From Schizochytrium sp. TIO01 (taxonomy: Eukaryota > Sar > Bigyra > Thraustochytrida > Thraustochytriidae), in the NCBI GenBank assembly GCA_004764695.1, contig SMSO01000014.1, positions 6,190,029 to 6,254,028 on the forward strand: a stretch of 64,000 nt of DNA. Direction: 5' to 3'. The notes below the pieces were generated by a model, which was not told the DNA's origin, did no database searches, and saw only the letters and a list, made by a program, of their open reading frames with translations. Position numbers and translations under genes: made by a program. This document shows positions 5,109 through 20,916 of this stretch, in pieces. Position 1 is the stretch's first letter. The number at the start of each line of letters is the position of its first letter.

Positions 5109-6422
5109 CTATGCATGCGATGCGGCAATGAGCTCATCAGCCTCCTCAAAACCAAAAAAGCGCATCGCGTTAGCAGTAGTCTGTCGAGCGACGTCCGCTG
5201 CCCCGTACCTTCCACCCGCATAGCGGCTGGCTACAGCAAGGCAGACTGCTGGCATAGCAGCTGGTTCATTGTTCCGAGCCTTGCGAAAGCCTGTTGCCTC
5301 AGGAAACCAAGACTTATCAGGCCGCATAAATGGTGAGTCAGTCTCAATCATAAGTCGATCAAAGGCAAGGTGCGACTCATCCGCAATAGCATCGAGTGTA
5401 CCAGTCCCCTCGGCACGAGAAAGCATGCCCACAAAACCAGTGAGGCCAATACAATAGCCCTTTGAAGTAAGGGACACCAAATCGCTCGTCGAACCTGTGA
5501 AACAGTGAATACAAACCCGTGAAGGATCTAGGCGGTCTGCGTATTTGGCCAAGATATCGGCACAGTGTTGTACGGCGCCTAGAGGCTCGCCTTTGTCCGC
5601 ATCGCGCTCCCTCAAATGCACAAAAAGAGGGCGCTTGAGCTCAGCAGCAAGAGCTACCTGAGCATCAAAAGCAAACTTTTGTGATTCCATGGGTGAGAAC
5701 ATACGGTCATAGTCGAGACCACATTCGCCAAGGCTCACGCAAAATGGGTTTGCAGCCATCTCTCGAAGAATTTCTAGCTTTTCCGGATTCACTCCGGAAG
5801 TTTCGTCAGCGATTTCCTTGGCATCGTGAGGATGAACACCAACAGTGGCGTATAAACGGATTGGCGTTTGGGTAGCCCCATCAACAGGGTACTTCACCTC
5901 AAGTTTTTTCAGCGTATCAGGGTCACCTACACCATGCCAGGCCTGGCTCAACTCAAGGCCCTGCCTTGAGCTTTTGAGTGAGCATCCTGTGAGAACAGCT
6001 CGTGAGACGCCTGCAGCCTCTGCCCTTTGAAGTTGTTCCAGAATTTCGACCTTCTTGAACCTGCTTTGGATGTTGATTCCAATATCTACCAGTTCACAAA
6101 CCTGATTGAGCTCATCTTTGATACTGAAGTCCCGCAGAGCTTTTACTCGATGTTCATGATCTTCTTCTGGCCTTTTCTTCTTCTGGCCCGTCGAAGGTGG
6201 CGGGGGCGGTGCTGTGAGTGCTTGGCGTTTATCTTCGGAAAGGTTTTCCAGAAATTCTTTCTTGCGAGCACGAATCTCTCTGATCTGAGCAAGCACTTCA
6301 GGTTCAGGTTTCTTACCCTTGGCAGGTTTCGGGGTAGCAGCTTCCGCAGCTAAGATGGATTGCCATGCCTCAGCTTCTGCTTCGTCCAAGACTTTTAGAG
6401 CTTGTGGTGTAAACGACGCCAT
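5109..6422 (-). CDS. TatD-family metal-dependent deoxyribonuclease
   Basis: A TatD/TATDN1-type TIM-barrel hydrolase, a family of 3'-5' deoxyribonucleases linked to DNA repair and apoptotic DNA degradation. The frame continues upstream but has no ATG there, so I start at the ATG at 6422 (437 residues). The first ~100 residues are a charged, low-complexity extension, including KGKKPEPE and a proline run before QKKKRPEEDHEH. The domain then reads VDIGINIQSRF, VGVHPHDAKEI, SLGECGLDYDR, RPLFVHLRERD, VCIHCFTGSTSDL and LMIETDSPFMRP. These supply the His, Glu and Asp metal ligands of the family. The N-terminal DIG-N form matches E. coli TatD rather than the HxH form of YcfH. The long N-terminal extension is unusual. 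Confidence 0.88.
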   Translation of the reverse strand: MASFTPQALKVLDEAEAEAWQSILAAEAATPKPAKGKKPEPEVLAQIREIRARKKEFLENLSEDKRQALTAPPPPPSTGQKKKRPEEDHEHRVKALRDFSIKDELNQVCELVDIGINIQSRFKKVEILEQLQRAEAAGVSRAVLTGCSLKSSRQGLELSQAWHGVGDPDTLKKLEVKYPVDGATQTPIRLYATVGVHPHDAKEIADETSGVNPEKLEILREMAANPFCVSLGECGLDYDRMFSPMESQKFAFDAQVALAAELKRPLFVHLRERDADKGEPLGAVQHCADILAKYADRLDPSRVCIHCFTGSTSDLVSLTSKGYCIGLTGFVGMLSRAEGTGTLDAIADESHLAFDRLMIETDSPFMRPDKSWFPEATGFRKARNNEPAAMPAVCLAVASRYAGGRYGAADVARQTTANAMRFFGFEEADELIAASHA

Positions 6423-7155
6423 TCCTCTGTGGGCCTGCCTTCGAGCAGCCACCCCCAGCAACCCTACTGGCGTGCAAAGCCTCGTCGTGCCGACCTTCAG
6501 GTAACCGACAGCGATGATTTATGTTTTCGTGGCGCTTGTGATTCTAGTTTTGATTCCAATCTTCAAGTTATCTTCTTCATCTGTGAGTCATTTTCCTTTT
6601 CCTTACCATACCTGCATTACTAACTTCTAAGCGCGTTTATTATGACAGAACCAACCCAGAACCGTACCAGAACGATACGAGATGAAGGCAGAAACAAAAA
6701 GCTCGCGGAAGACACCTCCTCCAGGCCTTGTTTTTGGAGGATTAGTAATTATGGAATCGGTTTGTTTAAGACAGGATCAGCGAAAGACTATGTGATTGTG
6801 AAAAGATCCACAATGTAAGAAGACTTGTCGTTCCCTTTTTCATTCCGAGACACCTAGTACAAATGGGCGTTTGTTCGTCCTTTCTTAACTTTCGTGGAAC
6901 TACGCAATCACCAATCAATAAGATTCTTGTGAATGTGCATTTTAAATACAAACAAGTCGATCAACATAAGCAAAAACATACCAGACAAAGTAGAGGTAGT
7001 GGAGGTTGAAGATGGTTTTATAAAGCTGGAGAACCTGGCTGTCTGAACGGTAACATTCTGGTTGAGTTGAGATGGACCATCATCTATCACCTTATGCTTG
7101 TCGGAATAAACACAAGAAAGGAAACTGCAAATAACCTTTTTGTTCTCTCGAGAAG
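6423..7155. other. Intergenic, left border of accessory island
   Basis: AT-rich stretch between the TatD start and the first island gene. No coding frame can be supported. The drop in GC toward 7 kb marks the change from host genes to the accessory region. Confidence 0.4.
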
Positions 7156-7656
7156 CTAGATTGTAAAAACTTTATGAACTACCAAACTACATGAAAACCT
7201 GGAAGAATTGATCCAAGAATCCAAGGGAACCACTTTGATGTATGATTTATATTTGGGTAGATCTTGGCGCAATGTGGTGGTTAGCATATAAATTAACCAA
7301 GTCCATATCACTAACGCAATTTTAAAAATTATGCAACGATAAATGATTACAGCACTTGCTCTTTCTGGTCCTACTTCAATATTCCATTTTGCTGTTCCTT
7401 TGAGGTTTTTTTGAACTTGGAAATCATTTAATGACATGAAAGTAACGTACTCATTGTTACTGACAAGGTTTATTATGCCGGACTCGTTGAATAGTTTGCA
7501 TATGCATGATAATTTACTGTGTGATAGTCCCTTGCAATGAGAATTGACCTGACATGGTAGCCAGCAATCATTGAAAAGACAAACGTTAGGCAATGAGATT
7601 ATCAGGTTGCCATCGGTGAGTGCCGTGTGATTAGAGGGTCCTTTCAATGAGCTCAT
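7156..7656 (-). CDS. Small PAN-like membrane protein
   Basis: A 166-residue product starting at ATG 7656. No function can be named. A cysteine cluster at about residues 26-53 (CLFNDCWLPCQVNSHC, then LSCICKLF) lines up in spacing and surroundings with the cysteine region of the protein at 14746-15309 (CLNLCVMAQDC, then LRSCIVF), including a trailing NNEYVTFMSL versus NVSYDVFTLE. Both resemble degenerate PAN/apple modules. A hydrophobic segment at about residues 108-127 (IIFKIALVIWTWLIYML) would be a membrane anchor, followed by a short tail. Unlike its relative it lacks an obvious signal peptide, so its 5' end may be lost. It is the last member of the co-directional minus-strand series. Confidence 0.5.
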   Translation of the reverse strand: MSSLKGPSNHTALTDGNLIISLPNVCLFNDCWLPCQVNSHCKGLSHSKLSCICKLFNESGIINLVSNNEYVTFMSLNDFQVQKNLKGTAKWNIEVGPERASAVIIYRCIIFKIALVIWTWLIYMLTTTLRQDLPKYKSYIKVVPLDSWINSSRFSCSLVVHKVFTI

Positions 7657-7841
7657 TAATTCGGATTAAATAAATAAATTTAAAGAATTTACCACTGATT
7701 GGTTGATTAATTTTTTGCCTATTTGTCAACGCTGCTGTTATCGATAAGCCAAATAAATGAATGAATGTATAGTAATATACTTTATATGTAAATATAAATA
7801 TTAGATTTGAAGATGAGTCTGGCTTTGTTATTACTATACTC

Positions 7842-8219
7842 ATGCAAAAGTCATTACCTAACCATGGATTTATTCCTGTGGTCACAGGCCCCACATCTGT
7901 ATCTCTGATAGAAGTGAAAAATGTTGACTACTTCGTCGATGTGTTGCGTATTTTCTTCAAGGAGGGTACTGCCTTTGAGGAAGCAATGAATCTTGCATTC
8001 TTGCATCGTAGACACGACTATATCGACCAACACTTTGAAATATCAACTCGCGCGACGCGTAGGCATATTGTCGATAAACATACTATGAATAGGAAGGAAT
8101 CAGAGTTTCCTTCTGCATGCTCTCCAAGTCTTGATCATCTGGGTTCGCACGGTAGTTTGAATGTGGTTCCTAAAATCTGCAATAATGGTGCGCAGGTATC
8201 CTACATTAGAGCTGGATGA
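7842..8219 (+). CDS. Hypothetical ORF antisense to truncated stalk protein
   Basis: A 125-residue frame with an ATG start that overlaps the 3' end of the minus-strand gene at 8100 by 120 bp. Residues about 25-85 look like a plausible charged helical protein (FFKEGTAFEEAMNLAFLHRR), and GC is locally higher than in the flanks. The overlapped part (after residue 86) is probably just antisense sequence. It may be a fragment of another gene brought next to the truncated paralog. Function unknown; it may not be a gene. Confidence 0.25.
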   Translation: MQKSLPNHGFIPVVTGPTSVSLIEVKNVDYFVDVLRIFFKEGTAFEEAMNLAFLHRRHDYIDQHFEISTRATRRHIVDKHTMNRKESEFPSACSPSLDHLGSHGSLNVVPKICNNGAQVSYIRAG

Positions 8220-9230
8220 ATATCCAAAGTTTGATTCATCAAATGGCCCCCATGATTGTGCAGGATTATAGCCAAGCTCCTTAAGAGTATTTTTAAGAGT
8301 TGCTTCAAGTGTATATGTTTGTTTGTTTGTCATTGTCTGTGGAGATGTAATTGGAGCCTGTGTTGGCACAGGGAGTGTTGTGGGTGATTCAGATGGCATG
8401 TAAGTAGGATTAGATGTGGGCACAACTGGCGCCTTAGTTGGATAAGTCGTTGGGTTTGTCGACTCATCGCTTGTCGCTTGCTCGATTGCTGTTGTGACAT
8501 CAAAAGAACTATAGTCCCCATCGTCACTTTCATAGTCTTCTTCATCTTCTTCATTGTCACTTTCATAGTCTTCTTCATCATCTTCTTCATCGTCTTCTTC
8601 GTCATCTTCTTCGTCATCTTCTTCATCGTCCTCTTCATCATCATCAGTCGTTGAGTTAGAAAGAACATCAGATGTTTGTAAATTACGCCTTGATCCGCCA
8701 AGACCACGAGTCAATGTGTTATCGTCACCATGGGTGGGGTTTTCTTCATTCAAAATGCTTAGTCGGCGTCCTAGACCACCGAGGCGCCTGCGACTGCTAT
8801 CACCTGAGCTATATTCTCCACCAGATGATGCATATGCACTTGAGTATGCAGAGCCACTGCTGCTGCTGCTGCTGCTGCTACTACTACTACTACTACCACT
8901 TGAACCGGATGAATATGAATCATCTCCAGTACTTGTATATTCATTAGACTCACTGTACCCCGATAGATACTCACCGTCATAGTACGCTGAATAGGCATCT
9001 GAGGATGCAATTGAAGATGCGGCACTAACACCTACAGACGCACCAATCGCAATGCAAATAATGAGAAAAAGAATAACGCAAGCCACGATCCCGTGTTCGT
9101 GAAGTAATGTTTTGAAAGAACCCCAGCATCCTTTTTCTCTGGATTCTCCTTCATTGGAGGCGACAATCCGCATTCCACGTCGCCCCCCACGATTTGAAAA
9201 CCCACCATGATGTTGCTGGGACCTCTTCAT
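8100..9230 (-). CDS. Truncated stalk-type surface protein, protease domain missing
   Basis: A 376-residue type II membrane protein. In order it has a basic cytoplasmic head, one transmembrane segment (about residues 45-68, ACVILFLIICIAIGASVGV), a stretch of 13 serines in a Ser/Tyr/Gly-rich region, a long Asp/Glu repeat (DDEED units), and a Pro-Thr stalk (PTTYPTKAPVVPTSNPT). The final part (LGYNPAQSWGPFDESNFGY, then GYLRTIIADF) matches the same stretch just after the stalk in the neighbouring metalloprotease gene (LGYSPYLEQGNVSDFG, then YGYLRTLVPDF). Right after this similarity the frame ends in an unrelated basic tail. I infer a duplicated copy that lost its catalytic domain. It lies 173 bp downstream of its relative, on the same strand. 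Confidence 0.6.
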   Translation of the reverse strand: MKRSQQHHGGFSNRGGRRGMRIVASNEGESREKGCWGSFKTLLHEHGIVACVILFLIICIAIGASVGVSAASSIASSDAYSAYYDGEYLSGYSESNEYTSTGDDSYSSGSSGSSSSSSSSSSSSSGSAYSSAYASSGGEYSSGDSSRRRLGGLGRRLSILNEENPTHGDDNTLTRGLGGSRRNLQTSDVLSNSTTDDDEEDDEEDDEEDDEEDDEEDDEEDYESDNEEDEEDYESDDGDYSSFDVTTAIEQATSDESTNPTTYPTKAPVVPTSNPTYMPSESPTTLPVPTQAPITSPQTMTNKQTYTLEATLKNTLKELGYNPAQSWGPFDESNFGYSSSSNVGYLRTIIADFRNHIQTTVRTQMIKTWRACRRKL

Positions 9231-9403
9231 AAGTACTTACTTAAATAAATACTTTTTATCGCTTATATCGCGCTTATGATTATCTCTCTTTTGAAGTCTA
9301 TGTATGGTTTTCAGCGTCCAATGCCAAAAAAATGTATGCGGTGTTACTTTTTAAAACTTGGAAATGTGAATATTAAGTTATGTACTGGTAGTTAGATAAT
9401 TTG

Positions 9404-11374
9404 TTATTTGAATGAAATGAGAATATCCTGCCACAGGAAACGACCTATCTTTAAAGTACACTGATAGCTCGTATTTTTCTCAGAACTTGTTAATTTCTTT
9501 TTGCTTGAATAACTAACTGTCACGGATATAGTTTGATGTTCCATGTTAGTCGTGACTGGTTTTTTGTAAACCAAAACAGAACCAGCAAACTTCAATCCAG
9601 GTCCAATCATTGATGGTAGGTCTTCAACTCCATTAGTGTAAGTACCCCAATCACACACCACAGTTGCATAATTATCGATTGAAAATGGGTCTATGGTATA
9701 CTCATCATAGTTTCTTTGTAATTTCGCAGTAACTGTGGTCTGTGCATACCGAGTTGAACTGCCAGATTTAATCTTTGTTTGATAAATATCATACTGTGGA
9801 ACCCACGTCGTCTGGTCTGCCTTATCATAAGTGACTCGAACATCTACATAGTCTCGATTAAAATCCACCGTTTCGAAACGCAAACCATTATGATGAGTGT
9901 AATTCTTACCGAATGTGGTAATTTGTGTGGCGTGGTTCCTAGGTTTTGATTTTGTATTGCCAGAGGCAACATGAAACACACACCCCATTCCATCTCCATG
10001 TGCATTGTCACCCTGGTCTTCCTCATATGTTGAGCTAAAAACCTTTGGATATCTGTAAAATGAGAACCATGATTCAGAGTCATACACAAGGTCTCGATAA
10101 AAGAGAGCCATGGGATATGATGAATTAACAATTGTGTTCTCCCAAACAGTACGCAGGCGATAAGTATTCCCGGGGACTAAATTGATATAATCGTCTTCAT
10201 CAAACCAGCCAAATGCGTGCTTTTGTGCAGGTGTATAGCCTTCAGGGCCATAGTGATCGATGCCACGAGAAAGCTCCATACCACCAGAGCACGAGAAGTG
10301 ATCTCCGTATTCGGCGAGTTGACCCCAGCGCCCATCATCGAGTCTTTGGAAGAGATGGTTGTGATTCCATTGAAGTAAATGGCCATATTCATGAAAATAA
10401 CTGAGTAAACTTCCATTGGCTAATTGAATAACAGCTCCATTGCCTGCACCAATGTAACAAATTGCCGCAAAATAATGCTGGGTGCTCTTGTTAAATACAA
10501 AATTCGTATTATCCTTCTTTGCAAGTGTGAGTAGTTTCTTACGAACTAAGACACATCTGCCTTTAAATGAGCTCTTTTTTGCCAATGTGTATCTCTTGAA
10601 TCCCTAATCACCGTTATTTTTTATTGAATATGTGTAGTTTGACCAAAGTGCCATTTTATTCACGAAATAAGCCCAATAGTCATCATCACTGATAGTATTA
10701 TCAGTAGATTCTGGGTAGCCAATCATAGAGTAAGTAATGTCTTTAAAGTCAGGAACTAAAGTTCGGAGGTATCCATAGTCAGAAAGCTTAAATCTACCAA
10801 AGTCAGAGACGTTTCCTTGTTCTAAATATGGACTATACCCAAGGGCTGATTCTGTATTGACGACACGAAATTCAACATCACTGTGAGTTTTACTATTTGT
10901 TAGGTCCACGACTGTAACATCAGATGGGTTAATTGTTGGATATGCAGTTGGTTTGCTCGTCGGTGTGGTCGGGGCTGATGTTGATGTTGATGTTGATGAT
11001 GTTGGCTTTGCCGTAGGTTTAGAGGTTGGCGCTGATGTTGCGACTTGAGTTGTATAATCATCTCCGCTGCTGCTGCTACTACTGCTGCTACTACTGCTGC
11101 TGCTGTAAGTTTCACTTGTATAGTCATCCGAGGAGTAAGCAGAGGAGTCTGATACTGTTGATGTACTAGAAGACTTCGATGACGAGGAGCTACTTGAAGA
11201 AGACTCCGTTGTTGTGGTTGATGAGTTAGAAACCACAACTCCTGTTACAGTCCCAATTAATATCACTAAAAATGCAACAAATGCAAGTGTTCTTTTTGTT
11301 TTGTAGCTCATTCTGTGATCAGATTCGTGTTTAGAATGAGCTTTTTTAACATCGTGGTACTTTTGTTTCGTCAT
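9404..11374 (-). pseudogene. Stalk-anchored gametolysin-like (M11) metalloprotease with in-frame stop
   Basis: One reading frame runs from ATG 11374 to 9404, interrupted only by a TAG at 10604-10606. The N-terminal part (256 residues) is a type II membrane protein with a TM at about residues 29-49, Ser-rich blocks and a PT stalk (PTSKPTAKPT). The downstream part carries a metzincin zinc site HEYGHLLQWNH (H328, E329, H332, H338 counted from the ATG through the stop). It is followed by AEYGDHFSCSGGMELSRG and QKHAFGWF, the pattern of peptidase family M11 (gametolysin). The usual Gly before the third His is replaced. The family degrades extracellular matrix or cell walls. Either the gene is dead, the stop is read through, or the base is a sequence error. 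The downstream half has no nearby ATG of its own. Confidence 0.65.
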
Positions 11375-11543
11375 GTACAAAAATTAACAATAATATTAAA
11401 ACAATAATTAAGCTGAATCCTTGTTATTTTTTTTTAAGAAGCAATTTTATGTACACATAGATGTGAAATTCATCTTTCATGATATAAACTAACTACAACT
11501 TATGTATCGAGTTCAAATAATATAAATTACGAATTATCATCAC

Positions 11544-13565
11544 TCAGGACGTGCCGAAAATTGCTACAGGAATGTATGAGTTGTTTGCCAATGTTAGTCC
11601 ACATGACATCGGGACACATACTAGGTCTTCAGTCGATGCAATGTCAGGGTCAACGATATCGCCACAACATGGAAAATTAGTTTCACCGAAGAAAACCTGA
11701 CTCAATGTTGTGTCTGATAGGTCTTCACTCACATCAGTTCTAACGATGGTAAGTGTAAGGCCATCCTCCGACAGACTTACATAAGTACTATCAATTATCT
11801 CCGACGAATCACTAAAACCATAGTAACTTGAAGAAGATAGAGGACTCCATCTAAAGGGATGTGAAGTTGCATTTTCTGTTGCAGGTGTTGGCACTAAGAA
11901 GGCAACTGCTCGATCAAACACTATTTCAATTTCATCCGAACTTATCTTAGTCATACTACTAATTTGCGCTGGCTCCTCCGACATGTACAACTGTCGAAAG
12001 GCTCTGTAACCGACAGGTCCTCTCAGGCGCGGAACGCCTACTTTCTCTTTACCAAATGCAGTCGAGTCATCGGCATTTTCACACCAACCCTTGATAAACC
12101 AGGGTTGACTTGCAATCGACGATTCGGAACATGATGCGTTACTAAGAGTAATTGTACCTTCAGTTCTATAATAAGGATCTGGTAAATCGTACACACTCAC
12201 ATATGTTGTCAAGGAATCGCCTAGAGATTCAACTGTATCGTGGAAAGCAAGTCTAGCCTTTGTTGCGAGGCCTGCTGAATTTATATCCTGGACATCAACA
12301 CCGATAATTGCAATTTTAGACAGCGGATGTGCTTCGCGCCAATAATTTGTGAAAAAGTAATCATAATATTTATCTTGAAAATCTGAAACATCGTCCTCCG
12401 TCATAAAACTGTTACCATATTGAACTAAGAGAGCTTCCACAGTGCTGGACTCGAGTTGATGAAACCCCTGTTCATAGCCGGTCTCGTCACTCAAAGAGTC
12501 AATCTCGTATGGGTACCAATTACCGATACTTATTTGAGGTAATGAAATCACTACAAGTCCTATGAAATTAGTATCAGGGTATTCCTCTAAGTAATTTAGT
12601 GCAAAACTGTAACACGATGAAGAAGCATCTTCAAGACTCTCTTCAGAATTTGACCATCCATACGGAAGTGGATCCGATGCAATCGTGGCAATACCATACC
12701 TCATGTGAAAAATTCGAGAGTCGTAGCGAGATCGAAAGGAATCTGCTGCAAGGTCATGTTCTATAGGCAGTGCACTCGACTCTTCGCCAGCGCAAATAAA
12801 AACAACCCCAAATTGAAGATTTGATACAACAAATGTGTTATCAGCATAAAGATCCCACCTCGAATAGGGATATAATGTAGTTATATTCGTACCCACCTGT
12901 ACTGTGATAACTTGACCATCAGTATCGATTGAACATTCCCTCGTGATTTCTTCATCGCTATCGACATTGATCAATGTGCAAGTCTGGATATCAGAAGATA
13001 TACTCAGACCAAGGGGTTCGTAGTAAAGACCGAATGTGCCATCAGTGTCTAATTGAATAACAAGATTACCGGATGCAAGATAGGGGTCTTTGCCGCTTGT
13101 ATAACTAGAGCCCGTAATCGCCTCTATATCACTGGCTGTGCGCGCAGTTGGCGCAGTTGTGGGTCCTGATGTAGTTGGAGCTCCAGCGACGGTAGGATAT
13201 GGTGTCGGGTTTAGAGTCGGTGCATTTGTAGATTGGGGATCGTTGCTATCTGCCGTTGGACTAGAAGTAACCTCCTCAATTATATTTGCATAGTCATCGG
13301 AATTACTTGATGTGGAACTTGATGTTGTCGATGAAGAACTAGACAATGAATCGCATACAATTTTTTCACTTGTGAATGCCACCTCCACTGATGTACTATG
13401 GTTGAGTGGAATACATACTCCTGTCTCCTGAACAGAAATGTACATGGCGACTAATACAAGACTAATCATCAAGAGCGGATTGATTAGGATAAACCATAAT
13501 CGAAGAGCACTTGCGACAAAATGACTAGACGTTGAGTTACTCTTTTTACGCATGTTTACTGACAT
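11544..13565 (-). CDS. Stalk-type type II surface protein with large ectodomain
   Basis: A 673-residue protein of unknown function with the same plan as its two downstream neighbours. It has a short basic head, a TM at about residues 24-46 (FILINPLLMISLVLVAMYIS), a Ser/Thr-rich block and a Pro-Thr stalk (about residues 105-145). The ~530-residue ectodomain is rich in beta-type sequence with about ten cysteines, including the late CCGDIVDPDIA and CVPMSCG. No protease or lectin motif is convincing. GNLVIQLDTDGTFGLYYE vaguely recalls bulb-type lectin strands, but I do not call it. It follows the PAN-like gene by 66 bp and precedes the protease gene by 169 bp on the same strand. Confidence 0.7.
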   Translation of the reverse strand: MSVNMRKKSNSTSSHFVASALRLWFILINPLLMISLVLVAMYISVQETGVCIPLNHSTSVEVAFTSEKIVCDSLSSSSSTTSSSTSSNSDDYANIIEEVTSSPTADSNDPQSTNAPTLNPTPYPTVAGAPTTSGPTTAPTARTASDIEAITGSSYTSGKDPYLASGNLVIQLDTDGTFGLYYEPLGLSISSDIQTCTLINVDSDEEITRECSIDTDGQVITVQVGTNITTLYPYSRWDLYADNTFVVSNLQFGVVFICAGEESSALPIEHDLAADSFRSRYDSRIFHMRYGIATIASDPLPYGWSNSEESLEDASSSCYSFALNYLEEYPDTNFIGLVVISLPQISIGNWYPYEIDSLSDETGYEQGFHQLESSTVEALLVQYGNSFMTEDDVSDFQDKYYDYFFTNYWREAHPLSKIAIIGVDVQDINSAGLATKARLAFHDTVESLGDSLTTYVSVYDLPDPYYRTEGTITLSNASCSESSIASQPWFIKGWCENADDSTAFGKEKVGVPRLRGPVGYRAFRQLYMSEEPAQISSMTKISSDEIEIVFDRAVAFLVPTPATENATSHPFRWSPLSSSSYYGFSDSSEIIDSTYVSLSEDGLTLTIVRTDVSEDLSDTTLSQVFFGETNFPCCGDIVDPDIASTEDLVCVPMSCGLTLANNSYIPVAIFGTS

Positions 13566-13631
13566 GCTTCTATCTATCTAATAATTTATGTTCAAATATC
13601 ATATGTATGTTAGTTATATAGTTTTACTTGT

Positions 13632-14753
13632 TCACTCCATCTGTGGGATTTGTGAATATTCAACCCTGGGAATAATAACGTCTACAAAATGCCAATGAAA
13701 CATAGACAAACTAAGAAGAAGTGTTGTTAAAATGGCATTCATGAGGAATGTACTACTGAGCATACTTCTTTCCGCCATTTTAATGACGCGGGTGATATTC
13801 TCATGCTTGATTGTATTATAATACGGAGACTCGACTGCGCTTGTTGATAAGAACGTACTTGATGCGTCATTTACTGGTTCTGCACTACCATAAAGTACTT
13901 TAGCTATGTAAATTGCAGCGTGATCATCCTCTTCTTGAAAACGAAGTGCATATGCGTCGTGGATATCACAGTATGCCACGCTACCTAACACAGCACGATA
14001 AACAAACGCTGCACATACAAACACAGTGTAAGAATTACATAGTTGAGCACATTCGTCCAAGGATATTCTACTAAAACTCTGGACTAGATTTTCACTTGAA
14101 AGTGTCATGTTTATGATGGGTTCCTGGAAGCCTGAAAAATATTCATCGTTCGTATTATATTCAACGGTTGGTGGATACGTTGGAAACCTACCGTAGCAGA
14201 GATGGGGTTCCATCAGCCAGATGGAACGTACAAGGTTATTCGTATTTGTAGTATCCAATGAAGCACGGGGTAAACGTTCCGCATAGGTGCTGTTTTCATC
14301 AAATGTTATCGTTTCGCCTATGTAACAACTCATGAGATTACACGTGTACAACACATCAGTATAAACTGTTTCTATGCGTATGGACCTACATTTGAAATCC
14401 TCGAGTTCCAAGCATTGTTCAACACATGCTTCATATGCTTCCGCACCAGTTACACGGGCTGATACTTGAGTGGTGTAGCCACTATCGCATGTGTAATATG
14501 TAGCAGAGGGAATGACACTCGACTTAAGTGCATCTGTATCAACAAGTCCATACTGGCATGTTTCAGTCCAGTTAGATTCATCTAGTGTGATGTTTACATC
14601 AAATATACAGTCTAAAACATTACCATATGCAGAATTTACTTCAGACACCTGATCTGATGACGAGCAGTTCCACGAACTGGATTTCACTGGTGTGCCTGAT
14701 GTGTTCGAAATAAGAATAATTAGAATAATGAAGTTGTGAATGTGCTTAAACAT
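13632..14753 (-). CDS. PAN-like type I membrane protein
   Basis: A 373-residue product starting at ATG 14753. It has an N-terminal signal peptide (FIILIILISNTSG, about residues 7-20) and many N-glycosylation sequons. Two cysteine clusters resemble PAN/apple modules (about residues 108-160: YEACVEQCLELEDFKCRS; about 229-275: LDECAQLCNSYTVFVCAAF, then AYCDIHDA). A C-terminal hydrophobic segment (about 333-352) is followed by a short tail, giving type I topology. PAN modules bind proteins or carbohydrates outside the cell. Its ATG lies inside the end of the upstream CDS (8-bp overlap). A TATATAA-like stretch precedes the next downstream start. Confidence 0.65.
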   Translation of the reverse strand: MFKHIHNFIILIILISNTSGTPVKSSSWNCSSSDQVSEVNSAYGNVLDCIFDVNITLDESNWTETCQYGLVDTDALKSSVIPSATYYTCDSGYTTQVSARVTGAEAYEACVEQCLELEDFKCRSIRIETVYTDVLYTCNLMSCYIGETITFDENSTYAERLPRASLDTTNTNNLVRSIWLMEPHLCYGRFPTYPPTVEYNTNDEYFSGFQEPIINMTLSSENLVQSFSRISLDECAQLCNSYTVFVCAAFVYRAVLGSVAYCDIHDAYALRFQEEDDHAAIYIAKVLYGSAEPVNDASSTFLSTSAVESPYYNTIKHENITRVIKMAERSMLSSTFLMNAILTTLLLSLSMFHWHFVDVIIPRVEYSQIPQME

Positions 14754-15309
14754 TACTAGGGATTATAATTCTTCTCTTCTCACCCTTTATGAAAAGATCT
14801 GCCATATGATATGATAGAACGCTGTAAAGTAGCCCGCTTAATATACTTACGACACACACAAAAAGTTTCACATTGTTAAAAATGACTTGACCTTGCACAG
14901 TGTACGTGTAATCTAATGAATGCATTGTTTTAACCAAAGTGGCAGTGTCGTCTACATCTGTATCATATTGATATTCAAGCGTGAAGACATCATAGGATAC
15001 ATTTTCAATCAGTGTGACAGCTTTGAAGGTGGGGAATACAATACAGCTTCTAAGAACTGATGAATAACCTACCGCTTCACAATCTTGTGCCATGACACAT
15101 AGGTTTAAACAAGCTGATTCTTTAGTAACCCCTTCAATATAAGTTGCATCACTAGTGTTATCCGGCAGAGTGCTAGGATATGTGCTTACATTATAGAATG
15201 CTTCAGAATTTTTAATAAAGAGTAAAAATGCAAGTAGGACTTTATTTTGGAAGCCCATCATATTACTTACTGTGTGCGGTACAGAGATAGTTTTTTTATA
15301 CATATACAT
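14746..15309 (-). CDS. Small PAN-like type I membrane protein
   Basis: A 187-residue product. A signal peptide (KVLLAFLLFIKNSEA, about residues 23-38) leads to a short ectodomain with a cysteine cluster (ESACLNLCVMAQDCEAVGYS, then LRSCIVF). A hydrophobic segment at about residues 148-167 (KLFVCVVSILSGLLYSVLSY) and a basic tail follow. The plan is that of a one-module PAN-like receptor or glycoprotein. The cysteine region is related to the product at 7156-7656. Its TAA overlaps the downstream gene's ATG (8 bp shared), which is unusual in a eukaryotic genome. The start is ATG 15309; an internal ATG at about residue 18 would give a tighter signal peptide. Confidence 0.6.
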   Translation of the reverse strand: MYMYKKTISVPHTVSNMMGFQNKVLLAFLLFIKNSEAFYNVSTYPSTLPDNTSDATYIEGVTKESACLNLCVMAQDCEAVGYSSVLRSCIVFPTFKAVTLIENVSYDVFTLEYQYDTDVDDTATLVKTMHSLDYTYTVQGQVIFNNVKLFVCVVSILSGLLYSVLSYHMADLFIKGEKRRIIIPSNV

Positions 15310-15360
15310 GACTAAGGATAAATACTTATATCTCTAGTGGTATCTTTCTTTTAATTAGCA
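15310..15360. promoter_or_regulatory. 51-bp divergent intergenic gap
   Basis: Only 51 bp separate the ATGs of the minus-strand surface-protein series and the plus-strand pair. The gap is AT-rich (AAATACTTATAT) and must hold 5' ends for both directions if both are transcribed. No defined box was recognised. Confidence 0.3.
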
Positions 15361-15540
15361 ATGAGAGCGTTTTTAGAACTTATCACGAAAGTTCTTACTT
15401 CAACACCAATTATGATTGCTTTTGAGGTTTTAGCCCTGCATATAATCAACGAAAAGCTAGGTGCAGTTAGTGCTACATTCCTCGTATTACCGTACACTTG
15501 TTTATTTAACTTACTCGCCCTTGGTTGTTTTAAGTGGTAA
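15361..15540 (+). CDS. 59-residue hydrophobic microprotein
   Basis: A short frame (ATG 15361, TAA 15538-15540) encoding 59 residues. It has two hydrophobic stretches, about residues 11-29 (VLTSTPIMIAFEVLALHII) and 36-57 (VSATFLVLPYTCLFNLLALG), separated by a charged NEKLG turn, and ends in FKW. A two-pass membrane hairpin is the natural reading. It sits 28 bp upstream of the next gene and 51 bp from the divergent series, which argues that it is a real gene of the compact island. No homolog is recognised; small membrane proteins of this shape are common in viruses and mobile elements. Confidence 0.45.
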   Translation: MRAFLELITKVLTSTPIMIAFEVLALHIINEKLGAVSATFLVLPYTCLFNLLALGCFKW

Positions 15541-15568
15541 ACCCGCGACGAGGGAGTGCAGTGCAAGG

Positions 15569-16291
15569 ATGCAGGATAAGAGACGTGCGAAGCGCGTGCG
15601 GTTTAACTTACCAACCGAGGGCGAGAGGCGAGGGGCGAATGAAGAGGACGCGATGTGTGGTCCATCCATAGAGACAGTTATATGCCCACTCCATGGCGCA
15701 GTCCAAGAATCTTGTGGATATCATTGCAAGGAAATCAAACAACATTCAGTGATCACGCGGCAGTCAATCAGTGATCGGACACTAGCTCTTAACACAGAGT
15801 ATTTAAAGATCGATCGCACAAATCCACAAGAATGTATCATTTTCTGTCAAAAGATGACGCAGTTATACATCGATAAGGGACTGCTTGAAATTGGGATCCA
15901 GGGGAATGGAAATAATGTTATCATGGATCACGAAACTGAAGAATATAGCACAGCGGAGTTGCGAAAAGATATCAAGGAACTTGGTGATTATAGAAGAAGT
16001 GACAAGTTGAAGAAACTAATTAATGAATATCTCATTCTCCGGGAAAACTATACAAACCGTACCTTCCTTCGTGAGAAGAACGCATTTTCTGTTTATGTGG
16101 AAATGGTATCAGCTTCAGAAGACCTTAGTGATCAAATTGAGCAGATGATGCTACGCGAGGCAACTGAGTATGTGATTTCTCAGAAATATTCAGAATCCGC
16201 TCGGCGTGTTAGGAATAGGGAGTTTGAAATCAACTTTCTGTTTTCTTACTTTTCACCCATGGAATTAGGCTGTATTTTCGAGACAGAGTAA
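15569..16291 (+). CDS. Hypothetical 240-residue soluble protein with RVxF motif
   Basis: The open frame extends upstream, but I choose the ATG at 15569 because the earlier part overlaps the microprotein in another frame. The product starts with a basic patch and AKRVRFNLP, which contains an RVxF sequence of the kind that docks protein phosphatase 1. Cysteines and histidines follow (CPLHGAVQESCGYHC), possibly a small zinc site. The rest is charged and helical (for example STAELRKDIKELGDYRRSDK) with no membrane segment. Function unknown. It is the second gene of the plus-strand pair. Confidence 0.5.
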   Translation: MQDKRRAKRVRFNLPTEGERRGANEEDAMCGPSIETVICPLHGAVQESCGYHCKEIKQHSVITRQSISDRTLALNTEYLKIDRTNPQECIIFCQKMTQLYIDKGLLEIGIQGNGNNVIMDHETEEYSTAELRKDIKELGDYRRSDKLKKLINEYLILRENYTNRTFLREKNAFSVYVEMVSASEDLSDQIEQMMLREATEYVISQKYSESARRVRNREFEINFLFSYFSPMELGCIFETE

Positions 16292-16393
16292 CAATTGGTA
16301 AAATATATCTTTTTAATTTTGATTTTAATTTTAATTTTAAGAATGTAAATAATTATTTTAAAAAAAATAGAAACAATGGTTTCAACTACACTT

Positions 16394-16930
16394 ACATTAA
16401 CTAAAGAAACTCAAACTGGTGGCCCTCAAGGTTTTTTACAGACCTGTCTATTAATTAGTACCTGCATTGATCACGAATTTGATCATATCTACCTACACAA
16501 ACGAAACATATAGTCACTGAAACGATTTACACTCCCTCGCTCGCTTATCGTTCTATTCCTACCTAGTTATTTTCGTCTTACCAAACTCATAATAAAGCAA
16601 TCCCAGCTATTTTCGCCTATGAGAGTGCTACCAGGCCTCCTAGTAAACCGTCCTAACTATTTTCACATTAACCCGGTACTACATTAACTAAAGAAACTCA
16701 AACTGGTGGCCCTCAAGGTTTTTTACAGACCTGTCTATTAATTAGTACCTGCGTTGATCACGAATTTGATCATATCTACCTACACAAACGAAAGATCTTA
16801 CTTATTTTCGTCTTACCAAACTCATAATAAAGCCATCCCAACTATTTTCGCCTATGAGAGTGCTACCAGGCCTCCTAGTAAACCGTCCTAACTATTTTCG
16901 CCTATGATACATTAACCCGGTCATATATTT
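16394..16930. repeat. 287-bp tandem direct repeat, two copies
   Basis: Copy 1 runs 16394-16680. Copy 2 begins at 16681 with the same ACATTAACTAAAGAAACTCA and continues to about 16930. Copy 2 lacks about 50 bp present in copy 1 (around 16509-16560). Each copy contains a near-palindrome TGATCACGAATTTGATCA and two or three TATTTTCG(C/T)CT boxes. The pair fills the gap between the 240-residue gene and the nuclease-kinase gene, so it could be regulatory or a footprint of a mobile element. No protein is encoded. Confidence 0.85.
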
Positions 16931-17018
16931 TAAAGTATTCATGTATCTATGAATTAGTTATATTATACCATTATCCCGAAGGTTTACCTTCACGGCAGAC
17001 CCGAAACGCGCTGGCAAA

Positions 17019-19085
17019 ATGCGTAGATTTACAACTACTTTGAGACAAGCCGCGAGGGGGATGATCAGTTCCCGCAACGATCCTAGTGCCCAATTTAGAC
17101 CTGTGCAACCTTTTCAAGAGCTGGCTTTGAGAACCATCGATGAGAATAAAACACAGATCGCGGAGGCATCCGAAGAGCTAAAAAGGTCAGGTACACGACT
17201 GGATGAGCTTTATGCTGATCGAAGAGCATTTATGAACAAAATTAGTGAATTAGAAAGCTCGTTTAGCAGCCAAGTGTCAGAAGAAGATGCTGTTTTTATT
17301 AGAGCGCATGTATCAACCCTTGGTGATGATGTGTCAGACGAAGAGGTTGATCGGCACGTTGCACAACTAGAACGTAACGAAAAGCGGCAATTCAAGTCGG
17401 CGATGCGAATCTTTAAAGATATCTATGAGGAAAAAAGTTTCCTAAAGCATATTCTCGATGATATATCTGACGAAAAAAGCTATCGGGATAAACTTTTTGA
17501 TGAAAGGAGCAAACTTCTAAAGATTAATAATGGGCTGCTGGACTCTATGAACGAAAGAATATCCCCCGCTCCTGTTATCGATGCCTTAAGCACGGAATGT
17601 CCAGTCTTGGATCAAAGCGATCCAGGCCAGTCCAATCCAACAGATCTTTCTAACATGAAGAACTACTATGCAACACCTGTGAAAGTACGTAATTTGCCTA
17701 TAAGTTCATTCGTGAGCTATTGCGCGGCAAAGCATTACATTGAGCGCCTCGAAAGGACCCATACAACCCACAACGTGGAGAAAATGATGAAAATTCTAAA
17801 AACTCGTAGATTAGGTGCCGAGGCGTCGATTACCGCACCATTCAGTGACATGTTCAGTATAGTTGAACAAACCTTAAAAGAGGAAGAGAGTCTTGATCTC
17901 CCCAAGGATATCGTTCTTCTTATCGGTAACACGAGACATATTGTAGGCAATCCAGACTTTGGTATACTTTGTCGTAATCACGATCCAGATGCTGAAGAGG
18001 TACCAGTGATTGTTGGCGAATTCAAAGGTCTTGGTTATCAATTCGACGATCTCGCTGAGCACTATTGTGACGCAGGATGTCAAGATGAAGCTTGTGAGTC
18101 GCAGCGGCATACAAGAGACTCAATTATTCGCCAGTTGTACAATTACATGGTACGAAACGGTGTCTTTGTTGGCATCTACACCAACTATAAGCAGACGTTT
18201 GGGTTATACAGAGACTGTTCAGGAAATTTGCTGACCTCTGAGCCAATTTCAGAAAACACCGAGGGGAATATAGAGCAGGGTCAGGTCAGCGTACTACAGT
18301 TTCTTGCACTCAGTATTATGATTGCCTACGATGGTGCGGTACCCGAATTCGAAGGTAGCGGTATAGATGGTTTGCTTATACCCTGTCCAGACGGTCATCA
18401 AGGTGGTCCTTGTCAAGGTCACACAAAGCTACCAGAGGCTTGCAATGCGAAAAATGACCGCAAAATAAATAAACATGAAACTTATAATTCTCCACCGGAC
18501 GATAGCTTCATCGGTTTACACCTGACTTCAGATGGAGAGCCATTATACTTCATTGATCTACACGATCGGGAGCATCTAGTACCTGGGTCCACAGGTCAAG
18601 TGGTGCGTGCTCGGATGCCGCTGAAGTCAGGCGAAGTGGACACCGTGTTGAAGATGTTGGACACGTTTAAGGAGCAAGAGAAGATACCTGAACTTAAACA
18701 TGAAGCTTCAATCTACAGGGAACTTGCCTCGCTACAGGGCGAATGCATCCCGGAGTTTGTCGATATTGGTTACTTTAGGGAGGGTTTTCTATACGCTCTT
18801 GGCACTGTCTATTCAGGTGAGAATGTTTCGAGTGAGGCAACTTTCAGTAACGAGTTCGTGGACAAGGCCGTTGAGTCTCTAGTCAAAATCCACGACCATG
18901 GTGTTTTACACGGCGATTTGAGCAAGAACAATATTCTTCGTCACAAAGAAACAGGAGAACCTATGTTCATCGACTTTGCCTTATCCGAGCGTGCTGATAC
19001 TATGAGTTCAGATGACTTCGAGAAGTCTAGGGAAGCGGAGTGCAAGCAACTTCGAAACATGCTGGCTAAATCTAGTAACTTATAA
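17019..19085 (+). CDS. PD-(D/E)XK nuclease-like plus protein kinase fusion, Crinkler-like
   Basis: A 688-residue protein in three parts. Residues ~25-190 are charged and coiled-coil-like. The middle has a restriction-endonuclease-fold signature: NPDFGI (PD at 312-313), then VIVGEFKG (E334, K336), with a later IIRQLYNYM helix. The C-terminal ~170 residues are a divergent protein kinase: GSTGQVVRARM loop, VLKML with likely ATP-binding K545, HGDLSKNN catalytic loop (H631, D633, N638) and IDFALSE, where DFG is DFA. Nuclease-kinase fusions of this order are known among Crinkler (CRN)-type effectors and FunK1-like proteins of oomycetes, fungi and protists. I see no LxLFLAK-type header and no signal peptide. 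It may act in the nucleus of the same cell or of another. Activity is inferred only. Confidence 0.65.
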   Translation: MRRFTTTLRQAARGMISSRNDPSAQFRPVQPFQELALRTIDENKTQIAEASEELKRSGTRLDELYADRRAFMNKISELESSFSSQVSEEDAVFIRAHVSTLGDDVSDEEVDRHVAQLERNEKRQFKSAMRIFKDIYEEKSFLKHILDDISDEKSYRDKLFDERSKLLKINNGLLDSMNERISPAPVIDALSTECPVLDQSDPGQSNPTDLSNMKNYYATPVKVRNLPISSFVSYCAAKHYIERLERTHTTHNVEKMMKILKTRRLGAEASITAPFSDMFSIVEQTLKEEESLDLPKDIVLLIGNTRHIVGNPDFGILCRNHDPDAEEVPVIVGEFKGLGYQFDDLAEHYCDAGCQDEACESQRHTRDSIIRQLYNYMVRNGVFVGIYTNYKQTFGLYRDCSGNLLTSEPISENTEGNIEQGQVSVLQFLALSIMIAYDGAVPEFEGSGIDGLLIPCPDGHQGGPCQGHTKLPEACNAKNDRKINKHETYNSPPDDSFIGLHLTSDGEPLYFIDLHDREHLVPGSTGQVVRARMPLKSGEVDTVLKMLDTFKEQEKIPELKHEASIYRELASLQGECIPEFVDIGYFREGFLYALGTVYSGENVSSEATFSNEFVDKAVESLVKIHDHGVLHGDLSKNNILRHKETGEPMFIDFALSERADTMSSDDFEKSREAECKQLRNMLAKSSNL

Positions 19086-19132
19086 CATAGGTAGGTATGA
19101 AGAATCTAGATACATAAACAAAAGAACTCAAT

Positions 19133-19864
19133 TTAGTTCATGTTTACTTCTTTTAATTCGAAGTCGACGACGAGCCTTGGAAGAATTACTTCATAACGTA
19201 GATTCACATAAACGGGTTTGTGCGGCCCATCAAAACCATTCATAAAGAATACCGGGTTCTCATAAGCCTTCGTTTGGATTGATGCGAGGTGGCTGGCTAA
19301 ATTTTGAGCTTTGACTAAAACGCTATATTGAACAACCTGATTGGTTCTACCAGGCTTCGATAGTTGCTTAATAAAGGCAAACTTGATGTGTCTCGAAAAC
19401 TTTAGACTAAGTGCTTTGGGGTCAATAATGTTATCTTGTAAACCAAAGAAGTTACTCGAGTTCGCACGATGATTCCCAATAGCACTATAAACCGTGAGTT
19501 GAATCAAATCACCAGAAGCATCATTCTTGTGACACTCATAACGAGTAGATTGTACGTAATTTGTAATTACACGAATACGCGGAATAATTAAGCGATGGCT
19601 CTGTACGGGCGACATATGTGTTCTAAAATAGTACACATTTTCAAGTTCTAAACCCGAGGTAATGTTTTTCCATGCTTTGGATCTGGGGATGACATCAACC
19701 ATCACATGCTTGTTCGTCCCCCAGTTCATTTGAATATGATGCGCGTGATATATCTTATTCAAGATTTGAAGCCATTCATCTGGTTCATCCGAAAGCTCAT
19801 TCTTAATCGCACCCAAAGCGGATGCTAACTTATCCGATGAATTCACTACGCAACTAAAGTACAT
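19133..19864 (-). CDS. Hypothetical 243-residue protein
   Basis: I do not recognise this protein. It has an ATG start and no signal peptide or membrane segment. The first ~70 residues are helical and mixed (KLASALGAIKNELSDEPDEW). From about residue 90 on, the sequence alternates in a beta-strand fashion (SHRLIIPRIRVITNYVQS; LRYEVILPRLVVDFELKEV). It is convergent with the nuclease-kinase gene, with 47 bp between stops, and shares the AT-rich composition of the island. A structural or binding role is possible, but nothing in the sequence proves it. Confidence 0.5.
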   Translation of the reverse strand: MYFSCVVNSSDKLASALGAIKNELSDEPDEWLQILNKIYHAHHIQMNWGTNKHVMVDVIPRSKAWKNITSGLELENVYYFRTHMSPVQSHRLIIPRIRVITNYVQSTRYECHKNDASGDLIQLTVYSAIGNHRANSSNFFGLQDNIIDPKALSLKFSRHIKFAFIKQLSKPGRTNQVVQYSVLVKAQNLASHLASIQTKAYENPVFFMNGFDGPHKPVYVNLRYEVILPRLVVDFELKEVNMN

Positions 19865-20121
19865 AAACCCGTAAAGATATTACTGATCCATTTAGTAACC
19901 AGATATGAGTGCTACTCAAGGTGGTCATGAGCTCTTTTGAACTAGATGATCCTACAAAAATAGTGGAAGAGCAATCAATCCCTTTTAAGTAAGATATTGA
20001 CTGCAAAGGATCAGTGTCTGCAACACAAAGACATTTTTTCTAGATTTTATAAATTAATGTTTGTGCAGAACATATGATGAGTTCATCTAAAGTATGTTAT
20101 CTACAAGCATGCGTTCATTGA

Positions 20122-20916
20122 TTAGTTTGCTTCAAGTTGCGGCACGGTTTCGGGTTTCTTGCTATCCTGGTTTGGGCTGCGAAACATTGTAACAATATTG
20201 GGAGTTTGCGCAACACCAAGGCCTGCGGTGATTGCACTGCCTAGCACGACGAGTGCATTTCGCACGCTGGCAATGATTTTGGCCGCCAGGTCGAATGGAT
20301 TTGATTTGGCGCCAGAAAAGAAGGCAGCAATTTGAGCCATACTGTTGGCTCCGCAAATTTGGCCTTGCAACTCAGGAATCTGAAAATATTGTGCTTCCAT
20401 GAAAATATCACGCAAAGCCTTGGGGTCCTTGGTGGGCAGTTGTACATGGGACTTGAAGATGTCTGATTTTTCCCCAATCACCTTGCGCAGTGCATACTGC
20501 TCGTGGCTGAGACCTTCTGCTTGGTTCCGCAAATGGTTGAGGATAAGCCCAAAGTAGGTTGGATCGCGGTCTACAAAGACCTTTTCGCCAACTACCTCAG
20601 AATTCCTCTCAGCACGGACAACATAGGCTGCTAGTACCGGATTAAGTGCAATCGTAGATCGCAAAGTGCGAAAGTCCTTGCCTCCAACATCTAGCACGAT
20701 AACACCATCTCCAGCACCATGTCTCTCTACATATGCAAGAGGGTTCTCAACCGTCTTGATATTTGCTGGAATTTCGATTGCCCCGGACTCAGCCGAGGAA
20801 AACATTCGCATTTGTTGTTTGAAGCTTTGTATGCGATTTACAGAGTTGCGCAAAAGTGCTACCACGCCCAGGGTCGGGGTTTTGATCCTCATACTGGCAT
20901 TCATGAATTGGAGCAT
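20122..20916 (-). CDS. KCTD-type BTB/POZ domain protein
   Basis: From ATG 20916 (the first real ATG; the frame is open upstream) this encodes 264 residues. A T1/K-tetra BTB domain is clear: VIVLDVGGKDFRTLRSTIA, then FVDRDPTYFGLILNHLRN. Such domains form tetramers or pentamers and often serve as Cullin-3 adaptors or in channel assembly. An aromatic/acidic helix follows (DIFMEAQYFQIPELQGQIC), and the C-terminal part has a moderately hydrophobic stretch (NALVVLGSAITAGLGVAQ) that could associate with membrane. It is intact and more GC-rich than the genes to its left, so it may be an ordinary host gene that interrupts the accessory region. Confidence 0.75.
   Translation of the reverse strand: MLQFMNASMRIKTPTLGVVALLRNSVNRIQSFKQQMRMFSSAESGAIEIPANIKTVENPLAYVERHGAGDGVIVLDVGGKDFRTLRSTIALNPVLAAYVVRAERNSEVVGEKVFVDRDPTYFGLILNHLRNQAEGLSHEQYALRKVIGEKSDIFKSHVQLPTKDPKALRDIFMEAQYFQIPELQGQICGANSMAQIAAFFSGAKSNPFDLAAKIIASVRNALVVLGSAITAGLGVAQTPNIVTMFRSPNQDSKKPETVPQLEAN

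Follow-up and report, generated by a model that had tools for sequence, protein, structure and literature searches.

Genes at the locus

The stretch analyzed here (the window) comprises 64,000 nucleotides of Schizochytrium sp. TIO01 and corresponds to positions 6190029 to 6254028 of contig SMSO01000014.1 (C13 hereafter; 7.46 Mb), in an assembly of 64.06 Mb in 37 contigs. A first-pass annotation of the sequence had singled out positions 7156-19864 as a compact island of about ten closely spaced genes, encoding surface proteins and a nuclease-kinase fusion, for which an integrated virus, a large plasmid-like element, or a subtelomeric effector or surface cassette was considered. The detectable core of this element is 8170-19084 (~10.9 kb), so that the proposed span holds at its center but not at its margins, where the ORFs at 7156-7656 and 19133-19864 are set apart from it (see below). 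Host DNA surrounds the island, genes for TatD DNase and BTB proteins lying on either side, and at 6.19 to 6.25 Mb of the 7.46-Mb contig its location is not subtelomeric.

As initially claimed, the core is richer in AT; it is also shifted in codon use. Its GC content is 0.406 versus 0.461 for the window outside 8170-19864, and stretches of 10.9 kb to the right of the island, taken in 100-bp steps, ranged from 0.449 to 0.473. The mean GC content at third codon positions (GC3) was 0.365 for the 10 island open reading frames (ORFs) and 0.497 for 15 flanking ORFs (Mann-Whitney, p = 7e-5). The block is also gene dense, but its gaps are not all within the reported 28 to 173 bp, with 443 bp at 7656-8100 and 727 bp at 16291-17019. 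The divergent gap, given as 51 bp, measures 151 bp and lies between the ORFs 14746-15309 and 15461-16291. Pfam searches with the 10 island ORFs returned PAN matches below threshold, a weak kinase match (RIO1, just above the cut-off), low-complexity matches, and almost nothing else.

A strong hydrophobic segment was found in six of the seven ORFs of the left half, which bears out the view that most products are membrane anchored; only 9404-10585, the rear portion of a broken gene, lacks one. Four surface proteins (9404-15309) have relatives at 220763-227144 of contig C2, in the same order and on the same strand, at 27 to 37% identity. C2 is a virus-like contig (275,050 bp) of the same assembly. 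Its PolB falls into two pieces of a single long frame, and the contig was called viral by this polymerase, its size, and its gene types, not by a capsid gene. The ORFs 9404-10585 and 10604-11374 (minus strand) align with residues 309 to 691 (37%, E = 2e-88) and 30 to 293 (27%, E = 4e-20), respectively, of a single 692-amino-acid (aa) C2 protein (220763-222841). Judging from these alignments, 9404-11374 is one surface-protein gene split by a single premature in-frame stop, which had been listed as two ORFs. A programmed stop was rejected, as the relatives on C34, C24, and C2 are open at that place; the C34 copy is broken at other places.

The next gene (11544-13565, minus strand) encodes a membrane-anchored surface protein of 673 aa that shares 35% identity with a 743-aa protein of C2 (223010-225241) and 99% with its C34 copy. 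It is followed by a gene for a cysteine-rich membrane protein of 373 aa (13632-14753, minus strand), which matches C2 at 35% over 284 residues (E = 3e-48 among the loci compared); BLASTP alignments with the two ends of the C2 relative gave 31% (E = 1e-17) and 27% (E = 2e-14). This protein looks PAN-like by eye and has no Pfam match. The last gene of the cluster (14746-15309, minus strand) encodes a PAN-like membrane protein of 187 aa (PAN_1, E = 2.9e-4, just below the cut-off) that resembles a 172-aa PAN-type protein of C2 (226626-227144; 27%, E = 2e-13). It overlaps its neighbor by 8 bp (14746-14753), which is the one overlap of coding sequences reported at first.

At the left end, the ORF 8100-9230 (minus strand), with a membrane anchor, a Ser-rich and acidic region, and PT repeats, represents a truncated second paralog of the PTxxPT-stalk surface protein. 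At the DNA level it matches the C34 copy at 94% as far as 8170, and in the C34 counterpart the frame continues into a domain resembling 9404-10585. By this comparison, 8100-9230 retains the front half of a paralog whose 3' half was lost at the left breakpoint, 8170. Its link to the C2-type surface gene is made through the C34 paralog, because its own match to the 692-aa C2 protein is weak (E = 0.005).

The divergent intergenic region between the surface cluster and the nuclease-kinase side (15310-15460) is common to the window, C33, and C34. Beyond it lies ORF1 (15461-16291, plus strand; first ATG at 15569, 240 aa), which is unlike the weakly Snf7-like gene at the corresponding place of C2. 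Its 10 matches in the genome fall at five places, each beside a nuclease-kinase copy (C13 twice, C33, C34, and C3). Two interleaved pairs of direct repeats (117 nt, 98%; 101 nt, 97%) at 16393-16899 precede the nuclease-kinase gene (17019-19085, plus strand).

The nuclease-kinase consists of a basic N-terminus, long helices (residues about 30 to 180), nuclease motifs, a Cys/His cluster (350 to 364), and a C-terminal kinase. The helices, read as a coiled coil, come from a structural model of poor quality in its other parts. Of the fusion first proposed, the kinase half is supported by hidden Markov model (HMM) matches, whereas the nuclease half is presumed, from a motif set (D313, E334-x-K336, R371-Q372), to be of the PD-(D/E)XK type. 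The kinase is minimal, with Bud32/RIO-like HMM matches, and ends 32 to 36 residues past the DFG-like motif in all 10 copies examined. Its residues K545, E562, H631-G632-D633, N638, and D652 are invariant in eight aligned full-length members. The same holds for D313 and E334 of the presumed nuclease, whereas the C5 copy has another residue in place of K336.

Copies of the island and their probable viral affiliation

Searches of the genome with DNA and protein sequences revealed that the island is multicopy. A near-complete second copy on C34 covers window positions 8170-19084, with 85 to 100% identity per 400-bp step, and partial copies were found on C33 (window 12743-19084), C6 (12424-15369), C3 (15408-19084), C24, C31, and elsewhere. 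These copies end at different points. Identity is mosaic, the window being nearest to C34 over most surface genes and nearest to C33 over the nuclease and kinase parts. On the right, the breakpoint lies at 19085-19132: homology with the copies on C33, C34, C3, and at C13:6.32 Mb stops at 19084, and the window copy ends with the stop codon of the nuclease-kinase. The C33, C34, and C3 copies continue for ~150 bp into repeats with a 41-bp unit that are missing in the window. On C34, these form a tandem array of ~11 copies (L011:905-1362) at the end of the nuclease-kinase copy that faces the host sequence; C33 and C3 have related repeats. The C33 copy neighbors P450, phosphoesterase, and HEAT-repeat genes, and next to the C34 nuclease-kinase lies a 648-aa ORF that reads as a protein kinase.

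Dispersed copies that run on their nuclease-kinase side into a common repeat would suit a cellular transposable element or a cargo-carrying transposon with the nuclease-kinase as mobility enzyme, and Crinkler restriction endonucleases (REases) have been linked to transposons in the accessible text of PMC5289972. However, no inverted repeats of at least 20 nt were detected within 6000-20500, nor direct repeats of that length bracketing 8170/19084. In addition, the copies end at many points, the surface genes on C6 and C24 have no nuclease-kinase within 170 kb, and Pfam identified no transposase or integrase family in the 10 island ORFs. We therefore rejected a transposon, which lacks defined ends here and is improbable. 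A mobile right module starting in the intergenic region was also rejected, as a six-copy alignment of that region had no clean shared end; the C3 copy starts and the C6 copy ends within 40 bp of each other there.

Beyond the surface cluster, the C34 copy continues with a match to an AEP primase (PF23162, E = 3.2e-4, just below the Pfam cut-off). It also carries an SNF2 gene that is 39.5% identical to that of C2 (E = 2e-37), as well as a third gene with a relative at C2:216986-217210 (E = 9e-11). The SNF2 gene and the third gene retain the order and relative orientation seen on C2, with more genes between them than on C2. SNF2 and Snf7-type genes lie within ~8 kb of the C2 surface cluster. The codon use of the six surface ORFs correlates with that of C2 at r = 0.74 to 0.90, as compared to 0.47 to 0.74 with that of the host. 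A further virus-like contig, C1 (289,439 bp), has its own PolB. For this polymerase, 48 relatives were retrieved from the database at E <= 1e-20, the closest of them at 60%, and five carry PF14890, which we take to be an intein family. A search with a PolB alignment returned 56 loci of low identity (20 to 37%).

Taken together, these data indicate that the island is probably a truncated endogenous piece of a large DNA virus, most likely a mirusvirus, that is related to C2 yet distinct from it. The integrated virus proposed in the first pass is thus supported by the collinearity with C2 and the primase and SNF2 genes on C34, but as a truncated fragment, not a whole virus, which would explain why no capsid, polymerase, or packaging gene was seen in the island. 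Mirusvirus is the likely label of the parent virus by analogy, because two distinct mirusviruses of similar size, one integrated (~300 kb) and one episomal, are described for Aurantiochytrium limacinum in the accessible parts of PMC12911909 and PMC12210455. As far as those texts go, the present assembly is similar in having two virus-like contigs (289 and 275 kb), each with a PolB, plus viral DNA in host chromosomes; it differs in that the island would be a short, truncated fragment of a third, divergent lineage present in several copies. Scattered broken viral pieces among host genes also recall the endogenous giant-virus fragments reported for Acanthamoeba and Phytophthora parasitica (PMC12210455 and PMC8204020, in excerpt). 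If so, several pieces of a third, divergent virus lineage would be fossilized in this protist, in addition to the two virus-like contigs of its assembly, and the island would mark a conserved block of candidate virion surface genes. These would encode membrane-anchored virion surface proteins, with stalks and PAN-type ectodomains, for attachment or egress.

Considering the proteins themselves, PTxxPT repeats and PAN domains are also found in stramenopile surface proteins. The block might thus be a host surface-protein cassette that was spread by segmental duplication and captured by a virus, and the copies other than that of C2 do sit on large, chromosome-like contigs. The C34 copy, however, carries the primase match and the SNF2 gene, the latter collinear with C2, codon use is virus-like, and many copies are broken or truncated; given the viral continuation on C34, we rejected this scenario, which is again improbable. 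An assembly artefact joining viral reads to a chromosome, conceivable because related virus-like contigs exist in the same assembly, is very improbable: protein identity to C2 is only 27 to 37%, several differently truncated copies have different flanks, and the assembly resolves 64 Mb into 37 contigs.

The divergence between copies bears on how they arose. For surface genes and ORF1 of the window compared with the C34, C33, and C6 copies, the ratio of nonsynonymous to synonymous divergence (w) was 0.08 to 0.35 in 11 comparisons (0.26 to 0.35 in the two of ORF1), and the 95% interval of dN-dS excluded zero in 8 of the 11. Dead DNA duplicated after insertion should give w of ~1, and the copies therefore seem to have diverged largely while functional, with purifying selection acting on the surface genes. 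From the sequences, they seem to be related viruses captured separately; later duplication, or a host use of the surface genes that is still active, may also have contributed. Under the viral reading, several related viral genomes would have been captured as broken pieces, probably at double-strand breaks.

The nuclease-kinase family and its linkage to the surface genes

At least 67 nuclease-kinase matches were found in the genome, corresponding to at least 55 merged loci; this count is a lower bound because only the best candidates were scored. Searches outside the genome gave little. One protein match (P0001) was retrieved among 7,993 candidates scored, and it probably comes from another strain, as it is nearly the C5 copy by eye; the surface alignment had no match among 7,986 candidates scored. 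IMG/VR scans with the alignment of the 673-aa protein and its C2 relative, and with the C1 PolB alone, retrieved no relatives, although records very near this genome may be excluded there. The first 30 residues contain at most one acidic and at least four basic residues in 6 of 10 copies, as compared to 8 of 175 internal control stretches. This suggests mitochondrial import, although four of the six share one sequence. Family members also occur in pairs. Divergent pairs, ~3.5 to 4 kb apart, were noted at C13:7135824-7142930, with an 18S rRNA motif 16 kb away (C13:7158871), at the start of a contig (C36:4520-11682), and on C6 and C31. On C7, C13, C31, and C35, two different nuclease-kinase genes lie 8.7 to 11.8 kb apart, start to start (e.g., C7:818757 and C7:830568), as if a larger block had been duplicated recently.

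For 7 of the 14 surface-gene loci, a nuclease-kinase locus is present at a distance of no more than 5 kb, whereas the random mean was 0.15 and seven was reached in none of 20,000 shuffles. This count is based on merged matches on host contigs and one DNA-only match; C2 rows were left out because C2 is a virus-like contig, and other DNA-only matches, such as the unpaired one at C34:1327 kb, were not added. Orientation, read from the coordinates, is head-to-head in six of the seven pairs, C30 being the exception. The pairs of the window, C33, C34:3.29 Mb, and C31 are close relatives and may represent one event, which would leave 4 of 11, whereas those of C34:3.41 Mb, C36, and C30 are divergent. 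The nuclease-kinase of the C33 and C34 copies occupies the border of the viral DNA toward the host sequence and is oriented head-to-head relative to the surface genes. We found no description of this association in the literature consulted, which did not include the primary Aurantiochytrium mirusvirus papers; these may contain pieces of it.

Several observations weigh against a viral piece carrying its own nuclease-kinase. Regarding the viral part, neither C2 nor any of the copies was shown to carry a capsid, terminase, or portal gene, although capsid and portal were not sought and most of C2 is unread; Terminase_6N had no match in the genome. IMG/VR scans with the nuclease-kinase and the 673-aa protein found no relative, with the same possible exclusion of very near records. 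The host codon reference includes the host ORFs themselves, and 1 of these 15 (41768) is also nearer to C2. Regarding the enzyme, the nuclease part has no significant Pfam match, being assigned by its conserved D...E-x-K and RQ motifs only, and a structure prediction with two sequences was too poor to test this domain (pLDDT, 37.9). Codon use of the nuclease-kinase is intermediate (GC3, 0.425; r = 0.81 to the host and 0.85 to C2), none of the 67 matches listed is on C1 or C2, 48 of the 55 loci are more than 5 kb away from any surface-gene locus (other viral neighbors were not tested), and 7 of the 14 surface loci are unpaired.

Because of the absence of listed matches on C1 and C2 and the 48 unpaired loci, the nuclease-kinases may be a host family, antiviral or selfish, beside which viruses merely integrate or survive, the surface genes alone being viral. 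The intermediate codon use and the N-termini resembling organelle-import signals are in line with this alternative. It is harder to reconcile with the head-to-head arrangement, which includes the divergent pairs on C36 and at C34:3.41 Mb, and with the shared ORF1, which separates the nuclease-kinase from the surface genes in the window, C33, and C34. We regard a host family as a serious possibility, with a chance of about one in three.

The nuclease-kinases also differ from the surface genes in their divergence. Among eight non-independent pairs, w was 0.89 to 1.95 and exceeded 1 in seven, the 95% interval excluding zero in one. In both comparisons involving the window copy, w was above 1 for the coiled coil and the nuclease and below 1 for the kinase, the value for the nuclease region against C33 resting on one synonymous change. 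Between the proteins at C13:3.27 Mb and C31:6.69 Mb, all 54 differing alignment columns fall in the coiled coil (residues 50 to 174), which looks like cassette exchange. This would mean that domain swapping, and not point selection alone, drives the variation. As the interval excluded zero in only one pair and cassette exchange can mimic the signal, we do not claim positive selection.

The presumed REase-type nuclease followed by a small protein kinase, in an expanded and modular family, resembles the C-termini of Crinkler (CR/CRN) REase-kinases, for which the nuclease is thought to be the toxic part and the kinase its regulator (Zhang et al. 2016, as cited in the accessible text of PMC5289972). 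Unlike the Crinklers described there, the island protein was found with a basic N-terminus and a hypervariable coiled coil in place of a ubiquitin-like (Ubl) header; neither a Crinkler nor a ubiquitin-like family was present among the best 25 of 28 Pfam rows for eight members. The effector idea of the first-pass annotation is thus partly retained for the nuclease-kinase, while the surface block is better ascribed to a virus. Four CRN genes are annotated around the viral sequences of P. parasitica according to the consulted part of PMC8204020; as far as that source shows, what differs here is a nuclease-kinase family that is statistically linked, mostly head-to-head, with one viral surface-gene cluster.

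If the viral reading extends to this gene, the nuclease-kinase would be a virus-associated, Crinkler-like conflict effector in which the variable coiled coil sets the partner or target and the kinase gates the nuclease. The nuclease might then cut competing or host (possibly organelle) DNA, resulting in superinfection exclusion or host control, a tentative hypothesis with somewhat less than a one-in-three chance. More speculative still, and rather unlikely, is that the virus lineage carries a polymorphic nuclease-kinase by its surface genes with a cassette-swapped coiled-coil specificity region, which would make it both a viral system that excludes superinfection or controls the host and a viral source of Crinkler-type REase-kinases. 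The linkage hints that nuclease-kinases travel with, or fight, giant viruses, and allows one to test whether Crinkler-like REase-kinases act as weapons of viruses, serve in host defence, or are selfish passengers.

Neighboring sequences and further loci

The AT-rich ORF at 7156-7656 (minus strand) was left out of the element. Its PAN_1 match has an E value of 0.02, and it has neither a DNA match elsewhere in the genome nor a significant match to three PAN-type proteins. On the other side, the ORF 19133-19864 (minus strand) belongs to a separate multicopy sequence with DNA matches at C3:998139-998727 and C34:1326526-1327059 and also on C5; its relatives on C3 and C5 are also near nuclease-kinase loci. 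At C34:1326526-1327605, relatives of window positions 19145-19675 and 8440-9029 adjoin, although these lie at opposite ends of the island.

The flanking ORFs had ordinary Pfam matches, namely, a class-II tRNA synthetase (read from its sequence as prolyl and mitochondrial), YccV-like, TatD DNase, BTB, Fic, TPR, and PCI/PSMD12-type proteins; 3 of the 10 flanking ORFs scanned had no match. The 18S motif search gave four matches, on C13 (~0.3 Mb from the contig end), C27, C28, and C29.

Near the C2 surface cluster, two genes (L067:1735-2478 and L065:1230-2024) are Snf7/ESCRT-III-like (E = 8e-14 and 9e-5, the latter below the cut-off), which suggests a viral membrane-remodeling kit. On C31, a nuclease-kinase copy (5887428-5889434) lies ~5 kb from a 1,151-aa family-B DNA polymerase frame (5894475-5895758), possibly another viral insertion.

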